IMG/VR virus record: IMGVR_UViG_3300010371_000076
Span: 1-36,648 of that record
Direction: 5' to 3' (one strand)
Length of the DNA stretch: 36,648 nt
Source: a virus
Part shown: piece by piece, positions 2,259 through 24,312 of the stretch
How the letters are laid out: each line of letters begins with the position of its first letter
Numbering within the stretch: position 1 is the stretch's first letter
Program-made: the position numbers and the translations under genes
The notes under the pieces: generated by a model
Told to the model about the DNA's origin: nothing
Databases searched by the model: none
What the model saw: the letters and a program-made list of their open reading frames with translations, nothing else

Positions 2259-2594
2259 TCAATACGGGATCGTGTCGCTCATGCCGGGATACGAACGCGA
2301 CGGCAACCTGCCCGCCACCGTCCAAACAACGTCGACCTGTCCGCGCGCGTCACGGCGCCGGCGTTGCTGCACGAGACCTTTCGCGCGGAGCGCACGGCCG
2401 AGCTCCATTCCGGCCGATCCGCACCAGGGGCACAGCTCGTCGGCCGGATGCTTGCCCGCCCAGGCGTGTGCAACGGCGCCGACCTCGTCGGTGTGGAGGC
2501 CGTCGTAGCCTGCTTGCTGGATCGCCTTGTGGGCGGCCTGCTGGCGGGGCGTGAGAGTGGGGGCGAGCGGGAACAGGTGGAGGGCTTCGCTCAT
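2259..2594 (-). CDS. Winged-helix-like protein with CPWC zinc knuckle
   Basis: 111 residues from ATG 2592-2594, overlapping the TGA of the methyltransferase gene (ATGA). TPRQQAAHKAIQQAG, then GLHTDEVGAVAH, and later GRALRAKGLVQQRRR follow the helix pattern of a winged helix-turn-helix. ELCPWCGSAGME inserts a Cys pair. It may bind DNA as a regulator or replication accessory factor. No specific family is recognised. Confidence 0.6.
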   Translation of the reverse strand: MSEALHLFPLAPTLTPRQQAAHKAIQQAGYDGLHTDEVGAVAHAWAGKHPADELCPWCGSAGMELGRALRAKGLVQQRRRRDARGQVDVVWTVAGRLPSRSYPGMSDTIPY

Positions 2595-4210
2595 GCGACT
2601 TCGTCCGCGAGTAGCGAGAGCTGCTGCAGCCGTTTCGCGCACAGGGCGGCGTAGTCGGCGTTCAGCTCTACGAGGATGCTCTTGCGTCCGAGGTCACGCG
2701 CGACCTTAGCCGTTGTTCCCGAGCCTCCGAACGGATCGAGCACGGTCCCTCCGGCGGGGCAGCCTGCTTTGATGCAGCGGCGCGGCAGTTCTTCTGGGAA
2801 CGTCGCGAAGTGCGCTTCCGGGGAGGGTTGTGTGGCGATCTCCCAGACCGACCGGATGTTCCGGCCGACGTTGGCGCGTAGGCGCGGGTTGTTGTGGAAC
2901 GTGCCGCCGATCTCGTCGCGGCGCTCTGCCTCAGAGTTCGTCGCTTGCACGTTGCGCCCGTTCACGCCTTCGGCGTCAGACTTGCGGCTTGTGAGTTCTG
3001 ACTTCGACTTCGCGCCGATCCATCCGGCCGCGCTGCCTGAGCCTTCATGCTTCACGTTCGTCTGATCGCCCCATCGCGCCCACTCCGCAGGCTCCCGCAC
3101 GGCCTCCTGGTCGAAGAAATACCGTGAGCTCTTCGTCAACAGGAACACGTACTCATGCGCCTTCGTCGGCCGGTCCGTCACCGACTCCGGCATCGGGTTC
3201 GGTTTCGCCCAGATGATGTCGCTACGGAGGTACCAGCCCGGTTCGTAGAGCGTCGGCGGTTCTACTATCCACGAAGGAATCTCAACCTCGCGCCCGTGGT
3301 TAAGATCGGAGAGCGCCGCGACTATCCACGCTCGGCGTTCCTTCGCATTCGCGCCCTCTGCGGTCTTTCCGATGCGTTTCGCCTCTCGGCTCATCTCTAG
3401 GAAGTTCCACGCCAGAAGCGCCTGCGTCTTCTTCGCGATCAGGTACGGGTACAACTCGCGCAGTAGCGCTGCCTTCGAGTCCACGTTATGAGCGATCCAC
3501 CTTCGGCACTCGCGGGTTCCTAGTGCGCTGATCCCGTGTCCGTTCCCGTCATCACGACTCGTCGGCCAGATGCGCTGCGCTTCAGCGAGTAGTGCCATCG
3601 ACGTGTTCGTGATCGTGATATGAACACCCGTCCGTATGCCGTCGCCATCGGCACGTTCGTGCGTGAATCCGCAGATAGATCCCTCAGCGTCGATGGTCGC
3701 GGCAAGCCACACTCGGTCACGCTCGCGAGCGATGCGTCCTGCGTAGTACGGCTCTTGCAACGCCCGAGCCACGGCCCACGGGATGCCGACGAGATCCTTC
3801 GGCTTGAGTCCTTCGATGGCTACGTCGGAGCGCGGGATGGCAGCGTCGTCGCGCCTTCGACTCACGGCCATCCCGGCGTTGCTGCGGCCGTAGTCGTGAT
3901 CCTTCGCCCCGATTGTCTGGGGCACCTGATAGCTGCGGTTCCCCGCGTAGCTGTCGCCAAGGTTGAGCCACAGCGTTCCTTCAGGCTTGAGCACCCGCCG
4001 CACCTGAGCGAACACCGCGACCATCTCGGCGACATACGCCTCCGGCGAAGCCTCCAACCCGATCTGCCCGTCATGGCCGTAATCGCGCAAGCCCCAATAC
4101 GGCGGCGACGTGACGCAACAGTCGACCGACTCGTCCGGCAGTTCGGCGAGCACCTCGCGCACGTCGCCGAGATACAAAGTGAAGTCCGGGTCGCTGACGA
4201 ACGGCGTCAC
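2591..4210 (-). CDS. Site-specific DNA methyltransferase (beta class) with inserted LAGLIDADG-like domain
   Basis: 539 residues, ATG at 4208-4210. TSPPYW (residues 34-39, catalytic motif IV) precedes DPFGGSGTT (about 492-500, SAM motif I), the order of beta-class N6-adenine/N4-cytosine methyltransferases. The target-strand text WYLRSDIIWAKPNPMPESV with DRPTKAHEYVFLLTKS is typical. The normal core is interrupted between ARALQ (about 151) and GWYLRSD (about 325). The roughly 170-residue insert contains WLAATIDAEGSICGF (168-182), a LAGLIDADG-type helix with the acidic end, and LYPYLIAKKTQALLAW (253-268), typical of the C-terminal part of single-motif LAGLIDADG domains. The insert keeps the frame and lacks intein splice residues. 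The methylase may protect phage DNA from restriction. Whether the insert cuts DNA or helps target recognition is unknown. Confidence 0.88.
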   Translation of the reverse strand: MTPFVSDPDFTLYLGDVREVLAELPDESVDCCVTSPPYWGLRDYGHDGQIGLEASPEAYVAEMVAVFAQVRRVLKPEGTLWLNLGDSYAGNRSYQVPQTIGAKDHDYGRSNAGMAVSRRRDDAAIPRSDVAIEGLKPKDLVGIPWAVARALQEPYYAGRIARERDRVWLAATIDAEGSICGFTHERADGDGIRTGVHITITNTSMALLAEAQRIWPTSRDDGNGHGISALGTRECRRWIAHNVDSKAALLRELYPYLIAKKTQALLAWNFLEMSREAKRIGKTAEGANAKERRAWIVAALSDLNHGREVEIPSWIVEPPTLYEPGWYLRSDIIWAKPNPMPESVTDRPTKAHEYVFLLTKSSRYFFDQEAVREPAEWARWGDQTNVKHEGSGSAAGWIGAKSKSELTSRKSDAEGVNGRNVQATNSEAERRDEIGGTFHNNPRLRANVGRNIRSVWEIATQPSPEAHFATFPEELPRRCIKAGCPAGGTVLDPFGGSGTTAKVARDLGRKSILVELNADYAALCAKRLQQLSLLADEVA

Positions 4211-5350: not shown

Positions 5351-5518
5351 ATGAACCCCCTGACCCGCGTCAGACGGGCAACCGCCAAGCGGCGCGCTGC
5401 CGATTCCGAGTGGCGCGCCGCCATCCGTGACGCTGTCGCGGAAGGACAGACGCACCGGGCCGTTGGTGAGGCTGCGGGCGTGACCCACACGCGCGTCCAG
5501 CAGGTTCTCCGGGACTAG
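5351..5518 (+). CDS. Small helix-turn-helix protein
   Basis: 55 residues, ATG directly after the TAG of the preceding gene, so the pair is translationally coupled. The N-terminus is very basic (LTRVRRATAKRRAA). Residues 21-54 read WRAAIRDAVAEGQTHRAVGEAAGVTHTRVQQVLR, given here in two parts: WRAAIRDAVAEGQTHRAV, then GEAAGVTHTRVQQVLR. This is a convincing HTH unit of the kind seen in sigma region-4-like or homeodomain-like small regulators. It probably binds DNA, perhaps the palindrome at 5161-5178, or acts as an excisionase-type factor for the nearby integrase. The stop overlaps the convergent lysozyme gene stop within CTAG. Confidence 0.7.
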   Translation: MNPLTRVRRATAKRRAADSEWRAAIRDAVAEGQTHRAVGEAAGVTHTRVQQVLRD

Positions 5519-5871
5519 CGCAGTCCGCACGCCCTGGATGTGTTCGGCCACTCGCGCCACGACCCACCGTCGCGCCGCCACACCAGGAACGCCCGGTACA
5601 ACTGCTCCCGCGGAGACGCCGACACCCACGACGCCGCAGACCCGCCGACGCTCAACCAGGTGCCCAACATGAACTGAAACCCGTTCGCATACGGGGCGTT
5701 GTGGATATGCCAGTCGCCCGACTCGCGCGAATGCACGCACAGAGCGCCGCGATACCAGCCTGTCGGCGTCGATAGCCGGGCTGACCAATGTCTCGGAACC
5801 GGGCGCGCGAACGCGGCCGGCGTCAGAATGAGGACGGCTACGGCCGCCGCGATGTAGGTCGTTGCACGGAT
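5515..5871 (-). CDS. Secreted lysozyme/Rpf-like transglycosylase, apparently AUC start
   Basis: 118 residues if translation starts at the ATC 5869-5871, preceded at 5 bases by AGGAG. The frame has no ATG, GTG or TTG between an in-frame stop near 5942 and a GTG at 5734-5736, yet the region encodes a textbook signal peptide: RATTYIAAAVAVLILTPAAFA, with cleavage after AFA. The mature part has CVHSRESGDW with the catalytic-type Glu (E50), then NGFQFMLGTW and WPNTSRACGL. This is the resuscitation-promoting-factor/lysozyme-like layout with a likely C45-C115 disulfide. It would cleave peptidoglycan outside the membrane. It lies outside the lysis cassette and beside the integration locus, suggesting a lysogenic or host-modifying role. 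An ATG-to-ATC mutation or sequence error is the alternative. Confidence 0.7.
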   Translation of the reverse strand: MRATTYIAAAVAVLILTPAAFARPVPRHWSARLSTPTGWYRGALCVHSRESGDWHIHNAPYANGFQFMLGTWLSVGGSAASWVSASPREQLYRAFLVWRRDGGSWREWPNTSRACGLR

Positions 5872-5901
5872 GATTTCTCCTGACGGGAGGGGATAGGGCC
5901 T

Positions 5902-5921
5902 CGCCAGTCGCTGTGCTGGCG
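5902..5921. repeat. Inverted repeat in leader of lysozyme-like gene
   Basis: CGCCAG and CTGGCG are 6-bp arms around an 8-base loop, 31 bp upstream of the predicted lysozyme start. It could be an RNA hairpin in the leader or an operator. No U-tract follows on either strand. Confidence 0.35.
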
Positions 5922-5942: not shown

Positions 5943-5961
5943 AAAAACTGCTGATTAGCAG
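5943..5961 (-). terminator. Rho-independent terminator after integrase/tRNA
   Basis: On the minus strand CTGCT pairs with AGCAG around AATC and is followed directly by five U residues (5943-5947). It lies downstream of the integrase stop and is suited to end the long leftward operon before the lysozyme-like gene. The stem is short (5 bp), so efficiency is uncertain. Confidence 0.55.
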
Positions 5962-6056: not shown

Positions 6057-6127
6057 GGCGCGTTGGCCGAGTGGTTAGGCAGCGGCCTGCAAAGCCGTTC
6101 ACACCCGTTCGAATCGGGTACGCGCCT
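6057..6127 (+). tRNA. tRNA-Cys (anticodon GCA)
   Basis: A complete 71-nt cloverleaf. The 7-bp acceptor is GGCGCGT with ACGCGCC, followed by discriminator T, the Cys identity base. The D arm closes with GCC/GGC. The anticodon stem GCGGC/GCCGT (one G-T pair) surrounds the CTGCAAA loop, and the T arm is ACCCG-TTCGAAT-CGGGT. CCA is not encoded. It is convergent with the integrase, whose stop lies 6 bp away, so the 3' half is a natural candidate for the attachment core. An intact tRNA could be phage-borne or a tRNA reconstituted at a prophage boundary. The plus-strand position fits neither neighbouring operon. Confidence 0.93.
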
Positions 6128-6133
6128 TGGCAT

Positions 6134-7066
6134 CTAGCTTCGATCCCCGGTAAGCGAATCCATCTGTGCGGCAATCTCACGGATCGTCGTGTGCACATAC
6201 AGATCAGAGGTGGTCGCAACCGACGAATGACCCATGAGTTGCTGCAACTTGTCGAGGTCAAGGCCGCGTTGACGCCACCGGGTCGCGAACGTGTGCCGGG
6301 CCGTGTGCGGTTTGCGGTACTCAACGTCGGCTTCGTACAGGCAACGTGTCCACCAGCGCCCGAACGAGGTGTCGCCGATCGGCTTCGACCTGCGAACCCT
6401 GTGCGCCCAACCACCACCGGGTTTGTCGTACCAAAGGTAGGAGTCCGGGTCGAGGCCGTCCAAAAGCAGCAGCTCGGCGCACGCTTTCCAGCATTTCGCG
6501 GTCATATGCACAACCCTGTCCTTCGACCCTTTCGCGCCCTCTTTCACGATCACCAGGCGGTCGTCGAGGTCGAGCCGGCGGGCACGCAAATGGGTGGCCT
6601 CAGACTTCCGCAGACCGACCTCGAACAGCAACGTCATCAGTTGTCCGTCAGGGGACGGGAGCGACGTGAGGGCGGCTTCTTCGGCTTCCGTGAAGATCTC
6701 TATGACGGGCTGCGCCGTTCGTTTGATCGTCGGCAGCATGTCCATCGGGTTCGCGTCAATCCTGCGGGTCAGGCGCGCCCATTTGAAGAACGAGCTGAGG
6801 TGTGCTTTTCGGATCCGCCGGGACTTCGCCGGGAACGTGAGGAGCAGGTCCATGATGTCGCCGTCGGTGAACTCGTCGACCGCCTTCTCCGGGTAGCGGT
6901 TCAGGAGGGCAGCGCAGGTCCTCTCGTAGGCATCGAGTGTGCGGGCCGCCGTCCCTCCGAGTTCCAGCCAGGCCAGCCAGTCGGCGTGTTCCCGCGCTGA
7001 CCTGGCCTCGAGGTGCCTGGTGTCACGCAGCCTGTCGAACCTTACTCCATGCGTGGTGACGTTCAC
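6134..7066 (-). CDS. int: Tyrosine recombinase integrase
   Basis: 310 residues, GTG at 7064-7066 overlapping the TGA of the upstream gene. Residues 22-115 form a SAM-like core-binding domain (helical, ending FFKWARLTRRIDANP). The catalytic domain carries all expected residues: R153 (GLRKSEATHL), a Lys near 179-182 (KGSKDR), H254 and R257 (HTARHTF), H280 (LMGHSS) and nucleophile Y290 (SDLYVHTT). There is no large N-terminal arm-binding domain, so it resembles compact XerC/D-like actinophage integrases. It would catalyse site-specific integration and excision, probably at the adjacent tRNA-Cys. Being last in the long leftward operon ties its expression to the repressor side of the switch, which suggests a lysogeny-linked pattern. 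Confidence 0.95.
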   Translation of the reverse strand: MNVTTHGVRFDRLRDTRHLEARSAREHADWLAWLELGGTAARTLDAYERTCAALLNRYPEKAVDEFTDGDIMDLLLTFPAKSRRIRKAHLSSFFKWARLTRRIDANPMDMLPTIKRTAQPVIEIFTEAEEAALTSLPSPDGQLMTLLFEVGLRKSEATHLRARRLDLDDRLVIVKEGAKGSKDRVVHMTAKCWKACAELLLLDGLDPDSYLWYDKPGGGWAHRVRRSKPIGDTSFGRWWTRCLYEADVEYRKPHTARHTFATRWRQRGLDLDKLQQLMGHSSVATTSDLYVHTTIREIAAQMDSLTGDRS

Positions 7067-16932: not shown

Positions 16933-17700
16933 TTATCCGACCCTCACGAAGTGGGAGACAAGCTGCCGCTGGCGGGTCTGCCGCATGACTGCTCCGCCGT
17001 TCGAGATGTTCGTCGGCCCCGTGTTGCCGCCGACGTCCGAAAACGTGCCTGCCTGCTCGTCGATCCACCGCTCGAAGAACGATGTGTGTGCGAACGGGTC
17101 ACCGTGCAGGTTGAAGATCGAGAGGTCGCCTGGCATCGGTGACCAGACGAGCTTCAGACCGTTCCTGCCGGCTGCCGCGTCGGCGTAAATCTGCTCACAG
17201 GCGGCGTACCGGTAGGCCGGGTGGCCGGTGTGGGCGAAGCAGTACGACTCGAAGATCGCGCACCACGGGACCCCGTTGAACCCGTACCAGGCGCCGTACT
17301 TCGACAGGTTCGACCCGTAGGGCGACTCATGGTTGCCGATCTCGCCGACCGCGAACTCGAGCGCCTTCACGCCGGGTGTTTTCGCGACCGCTGCGAGCCG
17401 TGCCGCGCGCCTGTCCTGGTAGGGCTTCGGGAGCGGCCGCCAATGCTCCGTCCGCAGATATTCGTAGAGCGTCTGCCCGAACACGCGGTCGCACGACGCT
17501 GCGGGGTAGCCGCACCAGTATTTCGCTGACCTCGTTGCGGCGGCGGTCACGGTGCCGTAGATGCCGTCGACCTTGCCGTCTTTGTACGGTGCCAGCCCTT
17601 TGAACCGGGTATGACCGGCGAGCAGCCACTGGGCGTCCTTGACGCGCTGCCCGGCCATCTTCGGGGACGTCAGCAGCAGCGGTGTGTCGAACTCACCCAT
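16933..17700 (-). CDS. Endolysin: peptidoglycan-binding-like region plus CHAP domain
   Basis: 255 residues from ATG 17698-17700, 6 bases after a start-associated motif. Residues 15-85 (GQRVKDAQWLLAGH, DGKVDGIYGTVTAAATRSAK) match a PG_binding_1-type repeat. Residues about 110-250 form a CHAP amidase/endopeptidase: VPWCAIFESYCF supplies the nucleophile C147, and DPFAHTSFF supplies H205. It would cut host peptidoglycan at the end of infection, once the holin opens the membrane. No signal peptide is present, which fits holin-dependent release. It is the first gene after the tail genes. Confidence 0.88.
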   Translation of the reverse strand: MGEFDTPLLLTSPKMAGQRVKDAQWLLAGHTRFKGLAPYKDGKVDGIYGTVTAAATRSAKYWCGYPAASCDRVFGQTLYEYLRTEHWRPLPKPYQDRRAARLAAVAKTPGVKALEFAVGEIGNHESPYGSNLSKYGAWYGFNGVPWCAIFESYCFAHTGHPAYRYAACEQIYADAAAGRNGLKLVWSPMPGDLSIFNLHGDPFAHTSFFERWIDEQAGTFSDVGGNTGPTNISNGGAVMRQTRQRQLVSHFVRVG

Positions 17701-20931: not shown

Positions 20932-23900
20932 CTAGCCGTTCACCAACGCTTGCAGTTCGAACTGCAGGCTCGACGTGAAGATGTGGGGGTCTGACGGCGC
21001 GGCTGCGAAGTTGTTCGTCACGTTGATCGTTGAGCCGCCGACGGCGGATGTCAGCAGGTTGCTCTCGAAGCTGCGGAGATCCGTGAGCCCCGACAGGTAC
21101 GCGTTCCTTTGTGTGATCGCGTCGATGATCGTCGAGGTGTCAGGGACGACGGCTGCGGCGACGGCGTCCGCGACAGACTGAGTGCCACCATCAGGAGACG
21201 ACGGCGCGGCGCTCTGAGCGGCCAGGTCTCGTTCCTGCTGTCTGATGTTGGCGAGCGCGTTCGTGACCGCAACCCGTGCTTCCGGGGTCAGCGCGAGCGA
21301 TGTGCCTGCGACTAGCCCTGTGGTGAGCTCGCCGGACAGGAACTGGTCGGCCGCCGTCAGGTAGGTGTTCTCGTCGGCCGCCGACCCGGTCAGCGACGCG
21401 TTCGCCTCGAGCTGCTGGATCGACGTCGGGAGATCCGCGGCGCCGGACTCGGCGGTGTCCTCGGCCTCTTTCGCGTCCTGCTGCGCCTTGTCTTTCGCGT
21501 CGGCTTTCAACTGGTTGATCTCCGTCAGGGCGGTCGAGATGTCGGCCTTGATCTCGCCCATCAGCTTCTGCGCCGACTTGATCTGCGACTGCAGCCACGC
21601 GATCAGTGACTTGTTCGGGAACCTCGCCGCTTTCGCCTTCTTCAACGACCGTGACAGCGAGTTCAGCCGATCCTGGGCGGCCTTGTACTTCGCTTTCAGC
21701 TGGGTGACGATCTTGTTCCACGCGGCAACGGTCGGGGTGAGCACGATCCCGGTCAGGATCTTCCCGATCCCGGCGACGTTCACGACCTTGGTGCCCTGGC
21801 CGGACTGCAGGTTCGAGATGGCTGTCTCGACCGCAGCGACCCCCGTCACCTTCGGGGTTGCTTTCGCGATAGCAGCCTCGGCGATCGGGGCGGCCAGTTT
21901 GTTCCGGGCGTCCTCGTAGGTCGCCAGCAGCTTCTCGAGCTTCGTGCGTGACTCCGACCCCTTCTTCGTCCCGGCGATTGCTTGGCTGACTTCGTTGATC
22001 GCGGAGTTGTACGCCTTGATGTCGTCCCCGACTCCCTTGGTGAGCGCGGCCGCGCTGATCGCCTCACCGAACTTCGTCGGGATCAACGGCTGAGCCTTCG
22101 GCTTCTTCGCGGCTTTGCCGACGACCAGTCCGCTGGCACCGGTCGAAGCTGTCGAAGCGGCAGCAGACGCGCCCGCCGGAGGCGTGGACGCACCGGCGCC
22201 TGCTTCCTTCTTGACCAGGTAGAAGCGCTTGATCCCGACCATGTCACCGATCTGCGACATCGGGATCGTGTCGGCCGGCTTGCCGGAGCTGTAGTACTGC
22301 ATCACCTGGGCGTTCTGGCCTGTCCCCGACGTCACGATCCCGACATGGCCCGGCGACGGGTATTCGGGCGAGCCGACCATGAACACCACGTCGCCCGGCT
22401 GCGCCGAGTTCGGCATGATCCCCGTCGACGTCCAGTTCGGCCCCGAATGGGTCGCCCACTGCGTCTCGGAGGTGCCGGGGAATCCCTTGAATCCGTTTTG
22501 GGTGAACACCTGGTAGATGTATCCGGAGCAGTCGAACACGCTGCCCGGCTTCGCGACACCGGAATGGCCGCCGCCGGTCTGGTAGACGCCGCCGGAGCCG
22601 ACACCCAACGATCGGGCGGTGCCGACGATCCCCGGTTTCACACCTTCCAGGCCGGCGAGCTGGCCGGGGACACCGCCGCTAGTGAAACCGGCGACCTGCT
22701 GGCCCAACGCCTTCTGAGATACCCCAAGCTTCTGGGCAGCCTGCGCGGCCGTGATCGTGTTTCCGGTGTCGGTGTCGTACCATTTCCCGCCGTCGTACTG
22801 GATCGAATGGGCGCCCCCGGTCGAAACCGAAAACTCGCCCTGCGCTCCCGACGAAACCTTGTGCCCGTTGATCGTGCCGCCCGTCGACGTGTCGGTCGTG
22901 TTGCTCAGTCCGAACGACGCCTTCTTCTCCAAGATCACCAGGGCGGCACCGAGACCGGCAAGCGCGCCGAGCACGCCTGCGCCTCCGAGCGACATCAGCG
23001 CGGCGCGGAGTCCAACAACCTCGCCGGTTGACGTCTCGGCGGCCGTCCCGATCCCCAACATGCCTTTCAGGCTGCCCCTCACACCGATCAGGCCGAGGAT
23101 CGAGCTTGTCCAGCCGCCGATCTTCAACAGCGCGAACGCCCCGGCCAACAACTCGACCGCGTGCTTCGACCCGCCAACAGCGCCAGCCAACGTCTTGAAC
23201 CCGCCGGCGAGCACCTTCACCGTCCCGGTCAGCACCGACACCGTGTCCTTCAAATCGTTTTGGACGCGCTGCTGGTTCTTCGTGTTCCCCAACCACCCCG
23301 AGAGCGCCTTCACCACATTCTGGATGGTCGGAAGCAGCGCCTTCCCCAACCCTTCCTCGAGCTGCTGCACGTCAGCCTTCAACGACACCTGCTCGCCCGC
23401 CAACGTGTGCGTCCACCGCGTGTACGCCTGCGCCGTCTGACCGGAACGCTCCATGATCAACTGGTAGGCCACATAGGCCTTCTGCGCGTTCGTCAACGGC
23501 AACGCCTGCCCGTCCACCGCCTTATTCAACGCCGTCTGCGCGCGCGCCGCGGTGTCCTGCGCCGACACGTACTGGGTGGTGCCAGCCCCGTACTTCGCCA
23601 GAGCGTCGGCGGCCTTCGCCCTAGCGACAGCCAACGTATTCTGCGCCAACGTCACCGCCTCCGTGACGGGCACGGACTTGACCAGGCCGTCCTGCAACGC
23701 CTTCTCCTTGATCGACGCCGAATCAACGTCGATCCCAAGTGCTTTCAGCGCCTTCCCGCGGCCCGCCAGCGCCGAGTTGATCGCAGACAGAGCCTCGGAC
23801 GGATCGACGCCCTTGATCCGGGCAAGCTGATCACCGATCGTCACCAGCCCCTTCGTGTACTCCGCCGCGGTGGCCGGGGCGACACCCATCGACTTCAGGA

Positions 23901-24312
23901 ACGCCCCCGTATCGTTCGCGAGCTCCAAAGACTGCGCCGACGCCAGACCGAGGCTCCTAACGGTCGAGTCCGACCATTTACGGATCACGTCGGCGGACCC
24001 CTCGAACACCTGGGAGGCACGGATCGTCTGGGTTTGCAGCGCCTCCGTCTGCTGGATCGCGTCCTTCACGACCGACGTGAACCCTGCCGCACCGAGGAAC
24101 GCGCCCGACGCGAACGCCAAAGACCGGCCAAGATGGGTGAACGCCCCCGACCCCGCCAGGACGCCCCGCGACATCAGGTCGGTGTCTTTCTCGATCCCGT
24201 CCACATGGCCGTGGAAGCTCGCCCGCGAGGACGCCATCCCACGGTCAAAGTTCGCCGTATCGGCGGTCAGCAGCACCTTCGCCGTCCCCGCTACCGAACC
24301 GCCGATCGCCAT
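20932..24312 (-). CDS. Tape measure protein with NlpC/P60-like peptidase domain
   Basis: 1126 residues from ATG 24310-24312, directly after the TAG of the chaperone gene (TAGATG). Long Ala/Gln-rich helical regions (residues 40-380 and 730-1090) and a hydrophobic part (about 385-465) define a siphovirus tape measure. An NlpC/P60-type domain sits in the middle: SVFDCSGYIYQVF gives nucleophile C595 and GHVGIVTSG gives H656. The protein sets tail length; at about 1.5 angstrom per residue the tail would be roughly 170 nm (rule of thumb). The peptidase probably helps DNA pass the cell wall during injection. Confidence 0.93.
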   Translation of the reverse strand: MAIGGSVAGTAKVLLTADTANFDRGMASSRASFHGHVDGIEKDTDLMSRGVLAGSGAFTHLGRSLAFASGAFLGAAGFTSVVKDAIQQTEALQTQTIRASQVFEGSADVIRKWSDSTVRSLGLASAQSLELANDTGAFLKSMGVAPATAAEYTKGLVTIGDQLARIKGVDPSEALSAINSALAGRGKALKALGIDVDSASIKEKALQDGLVKSVPVTEAVTLAQNTLAVARAKAADALAKYGAGTTQYVSAQDTAARAQTALNKAVDGQALPLTNAQKAYVAYQLIMERSGQTAQAYTRWTHTLAGEQVSLKADVQQLEEGLGKALLPTIQNVVKALSGWLGNTKNQQRVQNDLKDTVSVLTGTVKVLAGGFKTLAGAVGGSKHAVELLAGAFALLKIGGWTSSILGLIGVRGSLKGMLGIGTAAETSTGEVVGLRAALMSLGGAGVLGALAGLGAALVILEKKASFGLSNTTDTSTGGTINGHKVSSGAQGEFSVSTGGAHSIQYDGGKWYDTDTGNTITAAQAAQKLGVSQKALGQQVAGFTSGGVPGQLAGLEGVKPGIVGTARSLGVGSGGVYQTGGGHSGVAKPGSVFDCSGYIYQVFTQNGFKGFPGTSETQWATHSGPNWTSTGIMPNSAQPGDVVFMVGSPEYPSPGHVGIVTSGTGQNAQVMQYYSSGKPADTIPMSQIGDMVGIKRFYLVKKEAGAGASTPPAGASAAASTASTGASGLVVGKAAKKPKAQPLIPTKFGEAISAAALTKGVGDDIKAYNSAINEVSQAIAGTKKGSESRTKLEKLLATYEDARNKLAAPIAEAAIAKATPKVTGVAAVETAISNLQSGQGTKVVNVAGIGKILTGIVLTPTVAAWNKIVTQLKAKYKAAQDRLNSLSRSLKKAKAARFPNKSLIAWLQSQIKSAQKLMGEIKADISTALTEINQLKADAKDKAQQDAKEAEDTAESGAADLPTSIQQLEANASLTGSAADENTYLTAADQFLSGELTTGLVAGTSLALTPEARVAVTNALANIRQQERDLAAQSAAPSSPDGGTQSVADAVAAAVVPDTSTIIDAITQRNAYLSGLTDLRSFESNLLTSAVGGSTINVTNNFAAAPSDPHIFTSSLQFELQALVNG

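Follow-up and report, generated by a model that had tools for sequence, protein, structure and literature searches.

How can a gene be translated when no recognised start codon precedes the part of its product that is needed for export? This question is raised by a small reading frame in a linear IMG/VR virus record of 36,648 bases, analysed here at its full length and referred to below as the window. The frame lies on the minus strand, from 5874 to 5515 (the sequence-only reading of this DNA gave no strand), and is open from TAG 5943-5941 to TAG 5517-5515. Conceptual translation confirmed, as that reading had claimed, that a signal peptide and a lysozyme- or Rpf-like domain share one frame and that no ATG, GTG or TTG occurs ahead of the signal peptide back to the in-frame stop. 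The first such codon in frame, GTG 5736-5734, is codon 46 and falls within the catalytic domain. The AGGAG noted ahead of a tandem ATC ATC was also found in place (TCAGGAGAA ATC ATC CGT GCA), 2 nt from the first ATC and 5 nt from the second. Translated from the tandem (5874-5869), the frame reads IIRATTYIAAAVAVLILTPAAFA and then RPVPRH...; the product, written from the same codons, is (I)IRATTYIAAAVAVLILTPAAFA followed by RPVPRH..., a Sec-type signal with a lysozyme-like domain behind it. Because of its spacing of 5 nt rather than 2 nt from AGGAG, the second ATC (5871-5869) is the better placed of the two and most likely the AUC start codon. The features of the locus are collected in Table 1.

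Table 1. Features at and upstream of the Rpf-like gene (window coordinates)
Feature	Position	Strand	Basis or remark
Rpf-like catalytic domain, predicted	5518..5757	-	Pfam PF06737, Foldseek, family profile
Rpf/lysozyme-like CDS, secreted type	5515..5871	-	118 aa + TAG from second ATC; open frame, relatives, AlphaFold, Foldseek
Predicted catalytic Glu50	5722..5724	-	Invariant in 26 relatives; aligned with RpfC Glu
Sec signal peptide, predicted	5806..5871	-	22 aa; basic n-region, 13-residue hydrophobic core, A-x-A; hydrophobicity scan
Tandem ATC ATC	5869..5874	-	Second ATC 5 nt after AGGAG; homologous position in relatives mostly ATC/CTG
Shine-Dalgarno AGGAG	5877..5881	-	Anti-SD duplex -7.4 kcal/mol
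Leader stem-loop CGCCAG-cacagcga-CTGGCG, into AGGCC	5902..5921	-	Covarying stem; common to 13/30 members
Terminator-like hairpin CTGCTaatcAGCAG then TTTTT	5948..5961	-	Between integrase and Rpf-like gene
tRNA-Cys (GCA), likely attachment site	6057..6127	+	ARAGORN, Rfam
Tyrosine integrase, upstream neighbour	6134..7066	-	PHROG 1, E 2.7e-42

The gene is most likely intact and, as read from its sequence, would encode a small Sec-exported, Rpf-like muralytic enzyme. Cleavage of the signal peptide is expected after AFA, and the signal-peptide features are conserved throughout the family of relatives described below. An AlphaFold model built on a 26-sequence alignment had a mean pLDDT of 92.5, and the top PDB folds found with it by Foldseek were RpfB, RpfE and RpfC (probability 1.00, TM by target 0.7-0.8, E-values of 2.8e-3 and above). 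By sequence, the family profile matched RpfC at E 7.5e-13, with the Glu and the first Cys aligned, and Cys45, Glu50 and Cys115 were invariant in the 26 sequences. In the predicted model the protein thus has the Rpf fold. It resembles RpfB, RpfC and RpfE (PF06737) in this predicted fold, the catalytic Glu, the paired Cys and the signal peptide, but the phage family carries insertions and stays below the Pfam cut-off: the match to PF06737 (Transglycosylase-like, Rpf domain) had an E-value of 1.1e-4 and 23.2-23.6 bits, under the gathering score of 27 bits. The protein is termed Rpf-like in the sense that it probably works like Rpf, its Pfam score being too low for formal membership of PF06737.

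This domain structure bears on where translation can begin. A standard caller would choose the canonical GTG 5736, which is present in the window, and would deliver a cytoplasmic protein without a signal; such an internal start would truncate the domain to a point shortly ahead of its catalytic Glu, and it is highly improbable in view of the signal-peptide features conserved across the family. In one relative (L014, identical with L036) the entire 130-codon frame contains zero canonical start codons, so that an internal start is impossible there. The earlier warning that a caller starting at GTG 5736 would lose the export signal is supported by the position of this codon inside the domain.

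Relatives were collected by scans of IMG/VR, which gave about 30 distinct members, 32-62% identical. Strictly, 18 of the 30 lack ATG, GTG and TTG from the upstream stop as far as the hydrophobic core and carry ATC or CTG after a Shine-Dalgarno (SD) sequence instead (the window, L003, L004, L006, L007, L012, L014, L018, L024, L026, L031, L034, L038, L041, L045, L058, L076 and L080). The start is ambiguous in six others, either through a GTG or ATG 2-3 codons past CTG (L002, L075) or through a canonical codon upstream in frame (L028, L030, L035, L081). The remaining six have canonical codons, namely ATG (L025, L033, L037), TTG (L027, L051) and GTG (L039), and because of them the non-canonical start is to be called common in the family but not obligatory. 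The sequence-only reading had looked to relatives with ATG at this site for support, whereas most carry ATC or CTG at the homologous place, which supports AUC as the start in the window. Judged from these sequences, the lack of a canonical start is a family trait and not an oddity of a single gene.

A search of GTDB genome contigs in two scans found no relative, hence no host is assigned. The window protein gave no tblastn match in cultured phages, and a closer query detected only distant Rpf-like genes there. The Rpf-like genes of the cultured phages prophi79-1 and BRock differ from the present family in starting with ATG. The carriers are apparently uncultivated phages of actinobacteria.

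The start codon has also changed repeatedly. Close pairs differ at precisely this position, with ATG in L025 vs. ATC in L028 and L030, and CTG in L004 vs. TTG in L051; L003 has ATC where L006 has CTG, and the domains of the two are nearly identical. On the family tree, which is weakly resolved, at least eight changes between ATC and CTG and six between canonical and non-canonical codons are needed, and the start state is thus not one inherited accident. That translation appears to begin at AUC or CUG in most relatives as well suggests that the weak start has been kept by selection and that neither mutation nor sequencing error accounts for it.

Starts had been assigned by eye first and were afterwards retested by an SD-anchored, frame-controlled count, in which the best SD match was sought up to 45 nt upstream of the hydrophobic core, ignoring the assumed start, and the codons in the 10 nt after it were counted. 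ATC or CTG followed the SD in frame in 21/30 members vs. 3/60 in the other two frames (Fisher p 1.1e-10, an optimistic value since the members are related). Among control ORFs, defined as ORFs outside the family that have homologs in three contigs or more and taken from the window and the contigs of the relatives (33 clusters), 0/88 lacked a canonical start before the conserved part; therefore, unusual start codons are not a general feature of these phages. The automatic flag for start-less ORFs also picked up 21 ORFs outside the family whose homologs came from two contigs only, and those inspected proved to be overlong alignments in one close contig trio or shadow frames. When three contigs or more were required, no start-less ORF outside the family was left.

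In a further conceivable route, ribosomes would initiate upstream in another frame and enter the gene by a programmed frameshift. Some members (L003, L006, L007, L012 and L045) do carry a +1-frame GTG or ATG near the start, but the +1 frame of the window, read from the GTG, closes after 9 codons, L028 and L030 are devoid of canonical codons in all frames over the 45 nt before and the 30 nt after the start, and no shared slippery site was seen, which leaves this route very little chance of being right. Readthrough of the upstream stop was also considered and discarded, the upstream frame of the window running through the tRNA antisense.

Selection on the protein speaks to the other possibility raised by the sequence-only reading, that the start codon was mutated and the gene silenced. 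The mature part showed pN/pS values of about 0.03-0.35 among relatives, indicating purifying selection, and in close pairs pS exceeded pN in the signal part, too. A silenced gene is disfavoured by this marked deficit of pN relative to pS. The window copy indeed has no ATG, GTG or TTG, as silencing would predict, but the same absence recurs in 18 members, in which the SD and the signal peptide are kept and the domain is under strong purifying selection, and with most relatives carrying ATC or CTG the silencing proposal has become very hard to maintain. Least probable of all is that the start codon was misread in sequencing or misassembled. The site in the window is represented by one assembly only, a second having been looked for in IMG/VR and not found, but such an error would not recur family-wide as an in-frame ATC or CTG after an SD; moreover, for five relatives with non-canonical starts two separate records each are available, identical over 100 nt around the start, and this agreement of independent records argues against error.

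The reading best fitting these data, and one held here as probable, is that translation begins at an AUC, likely 5871-5869, after a good SD, and that the weak start has been retained across the family as a throttle on the dose of the enzyme. The initiator fMet-tRNA would read this AUC with a third-position mismatch, being placed by the SD. Initiation would be very weak and output low because IF3 discriminates against AUC and CUG codons, and expression should therefore be sensitive to IF3. In the course of family evolution the weak codon would switch between AUC and CUG while being retained as the throttle. As to the reason, the enzyme carries its own signal peptide and would reach the wall without a holin; because export needs no holin, the dose would have to be limited at translation.

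The position of the gene may add a further level. In the window (6057-7066), the complete tRNA-Cys lies directly beside the integrase gene and is likely the attP/attB site; an integrase within about 1.2 kb upstream also occurs in L004, L024 and L034. Expression of the Rpf-like gene might be linked to the lysogeny module, comprising the integrase and the att site. In L002 (4920-4923) and L018 (4001-4004), the start lies in a CTGA that contains the integrase stop TGA, implying translational coupling of the integrase and the Rpf-like gene in these two phages. In L028, L030 and L025, a frame that lies upstream and resembles a VRR-NUC nuclease extends with its 3' part over the start of the gene, the resemblance having been noted by eye only.

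Such overlaps bring in termination-reinitiation, in which a ribosome ending an overlapping upstream ORF would restart at the weak AUC or CUG, tying output to the upstream gene and making a strong start dispensable. The assigned CTG starts have the form CTGA in nine out of ten cases, the TGA ending an upstream frame not only in L002 and L018 but also, with another open frame, in L014, L045 and L075. An upstream ORF stops 4-10 nt past the ATC in L026, L076 and L080, and the canonical members have NTGA at the start in 5/6. In the window, however, no upstream ORF ends near the start and the terminator-like hairpin separates the integrase from the gene, and L024, L034, L058 and L081 likewise have no upstream ORF ending there. 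Reinitiation is accordingly a serious possibility, though one falling somewhat short of an even chance; it can contribute in many of the relatives but does not account for expression in the window, and since the window and these four relatives lack the upstream ORF, coupling can add to AUC initiation but not replace it.

Initiation at a retained weak codon may, in addition, be accompanied by an RNA element in the leader. A stem-loop leading into AGG[CA], with GAGG 30-35 nt before the start, was found in 13/30 members including the window, as compared with 7/245 control genes and 4% of random positions (p about 1e-9, or 1e-7 with close relatives merged). The hairpin was scored by a direct stem scan alongside the control genes, the loops differing in length between members. 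Pairing in the stem is kept while its letters vary (CGCCAG/CTGGCG, CGCGAG/CTCGCG, CGCGGG/CCCGCG, CGGGGG/CCCCCG and others), and an Rfam search of the window and 12 loci returned tRNAs only, with no riboswitch or leader match. The leader hairpin thus appears to be a cis-acting RNA element, possibly a new one. A conserved short leader peptide, considered for the clade of L003, L006 and L007, was rejected because single-base indels disrupt its reading frame whereas the hairpin persists. More tentatively than reinitiation, it may be proposed that the covarying hairpin, the SD and an obligatorily weak AUC or CUG start, often overlapping a stop codon, form one control unit that gates the secreted enzyme according to the state of the ribosome and IF3 or through coupling to the integrase.

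A handful of genes are known to start at non-canonical codons. In the literature searched, no report was found of a phage gene family that usually starts at AUC or CUG; the family, its codon switching and its leader are thus new as far as that literature goes. Control by weak starts exists in actinobacteria, as illustrated by the Streptomyces sigR (GTC) and infC (ATC) starts, which are repressed by IF3; replacement of the sigR GTC with a canonical codon led to overproduction of the protein (PMC5472188). In E. coli, the output from CUG is about 0.86% of that from AUG (PMC11497404). The sigR gene resembles the present case in being an actinobacterial gene whose non-canonical start is conserved and preceded by a strong ribosome-binding site, the weak start limiting a dose-critical protein, but it encodes a chromosomal sigma factor and uses GTC, whereas here a phage muralytic enzyme has interchanging ATC and CTG. 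The infC gene (AUU; ATC in Streptomyces) shares the AUC start after an SD, and by analogy IF3 sensitivity would be expected here; it differs in serving an IF3 autoregulatory loop, no feedback being apparent for the Rpf-like gene.

That the family appears mostly to use weak starts suggests that selection for dose control is possible, and its members provide a natural ATG/TTG/GTG/CTG/ATC allele series with which dose control can be tested. For viral metagenomes, it follows that exported enzymes of this type will be absent or shortened in annotations made with standard gene callers.

The window represents a temperate siphophage, with genes for terminase, portal, protease, major head and tail proteins and integrase. 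A separate endolysin-like gene is located at 16936-17700 on the minus strand (PHROG endolysin, E 5.6e-13), and for this reason lysis probably depends mainly on an enzyme other than the Rpf-like protein. Signal-bearing phage endolysins are muralytic enzymes with an export signal of their own, a property shared by the Rpf-like enzyme, but the present gene lies beside the integrase rather than in a lysis cassette, and the endolysin-like gene is present in addition. The phage thus has at least two muralytic genes. Among the tail genes, a 1126-aa protein (20932-24312, minus strand) contains an NlpC/P60 or CHAP domain. A DNA methyltransferase gene (2591-4210, minus strand) matches an HNH-endonuclease PHROG in its middle and includes a LAGLIDADG-like stretch (LAATIDAEGSI), perhaps representing an inserted homing endonuclease or an intein.
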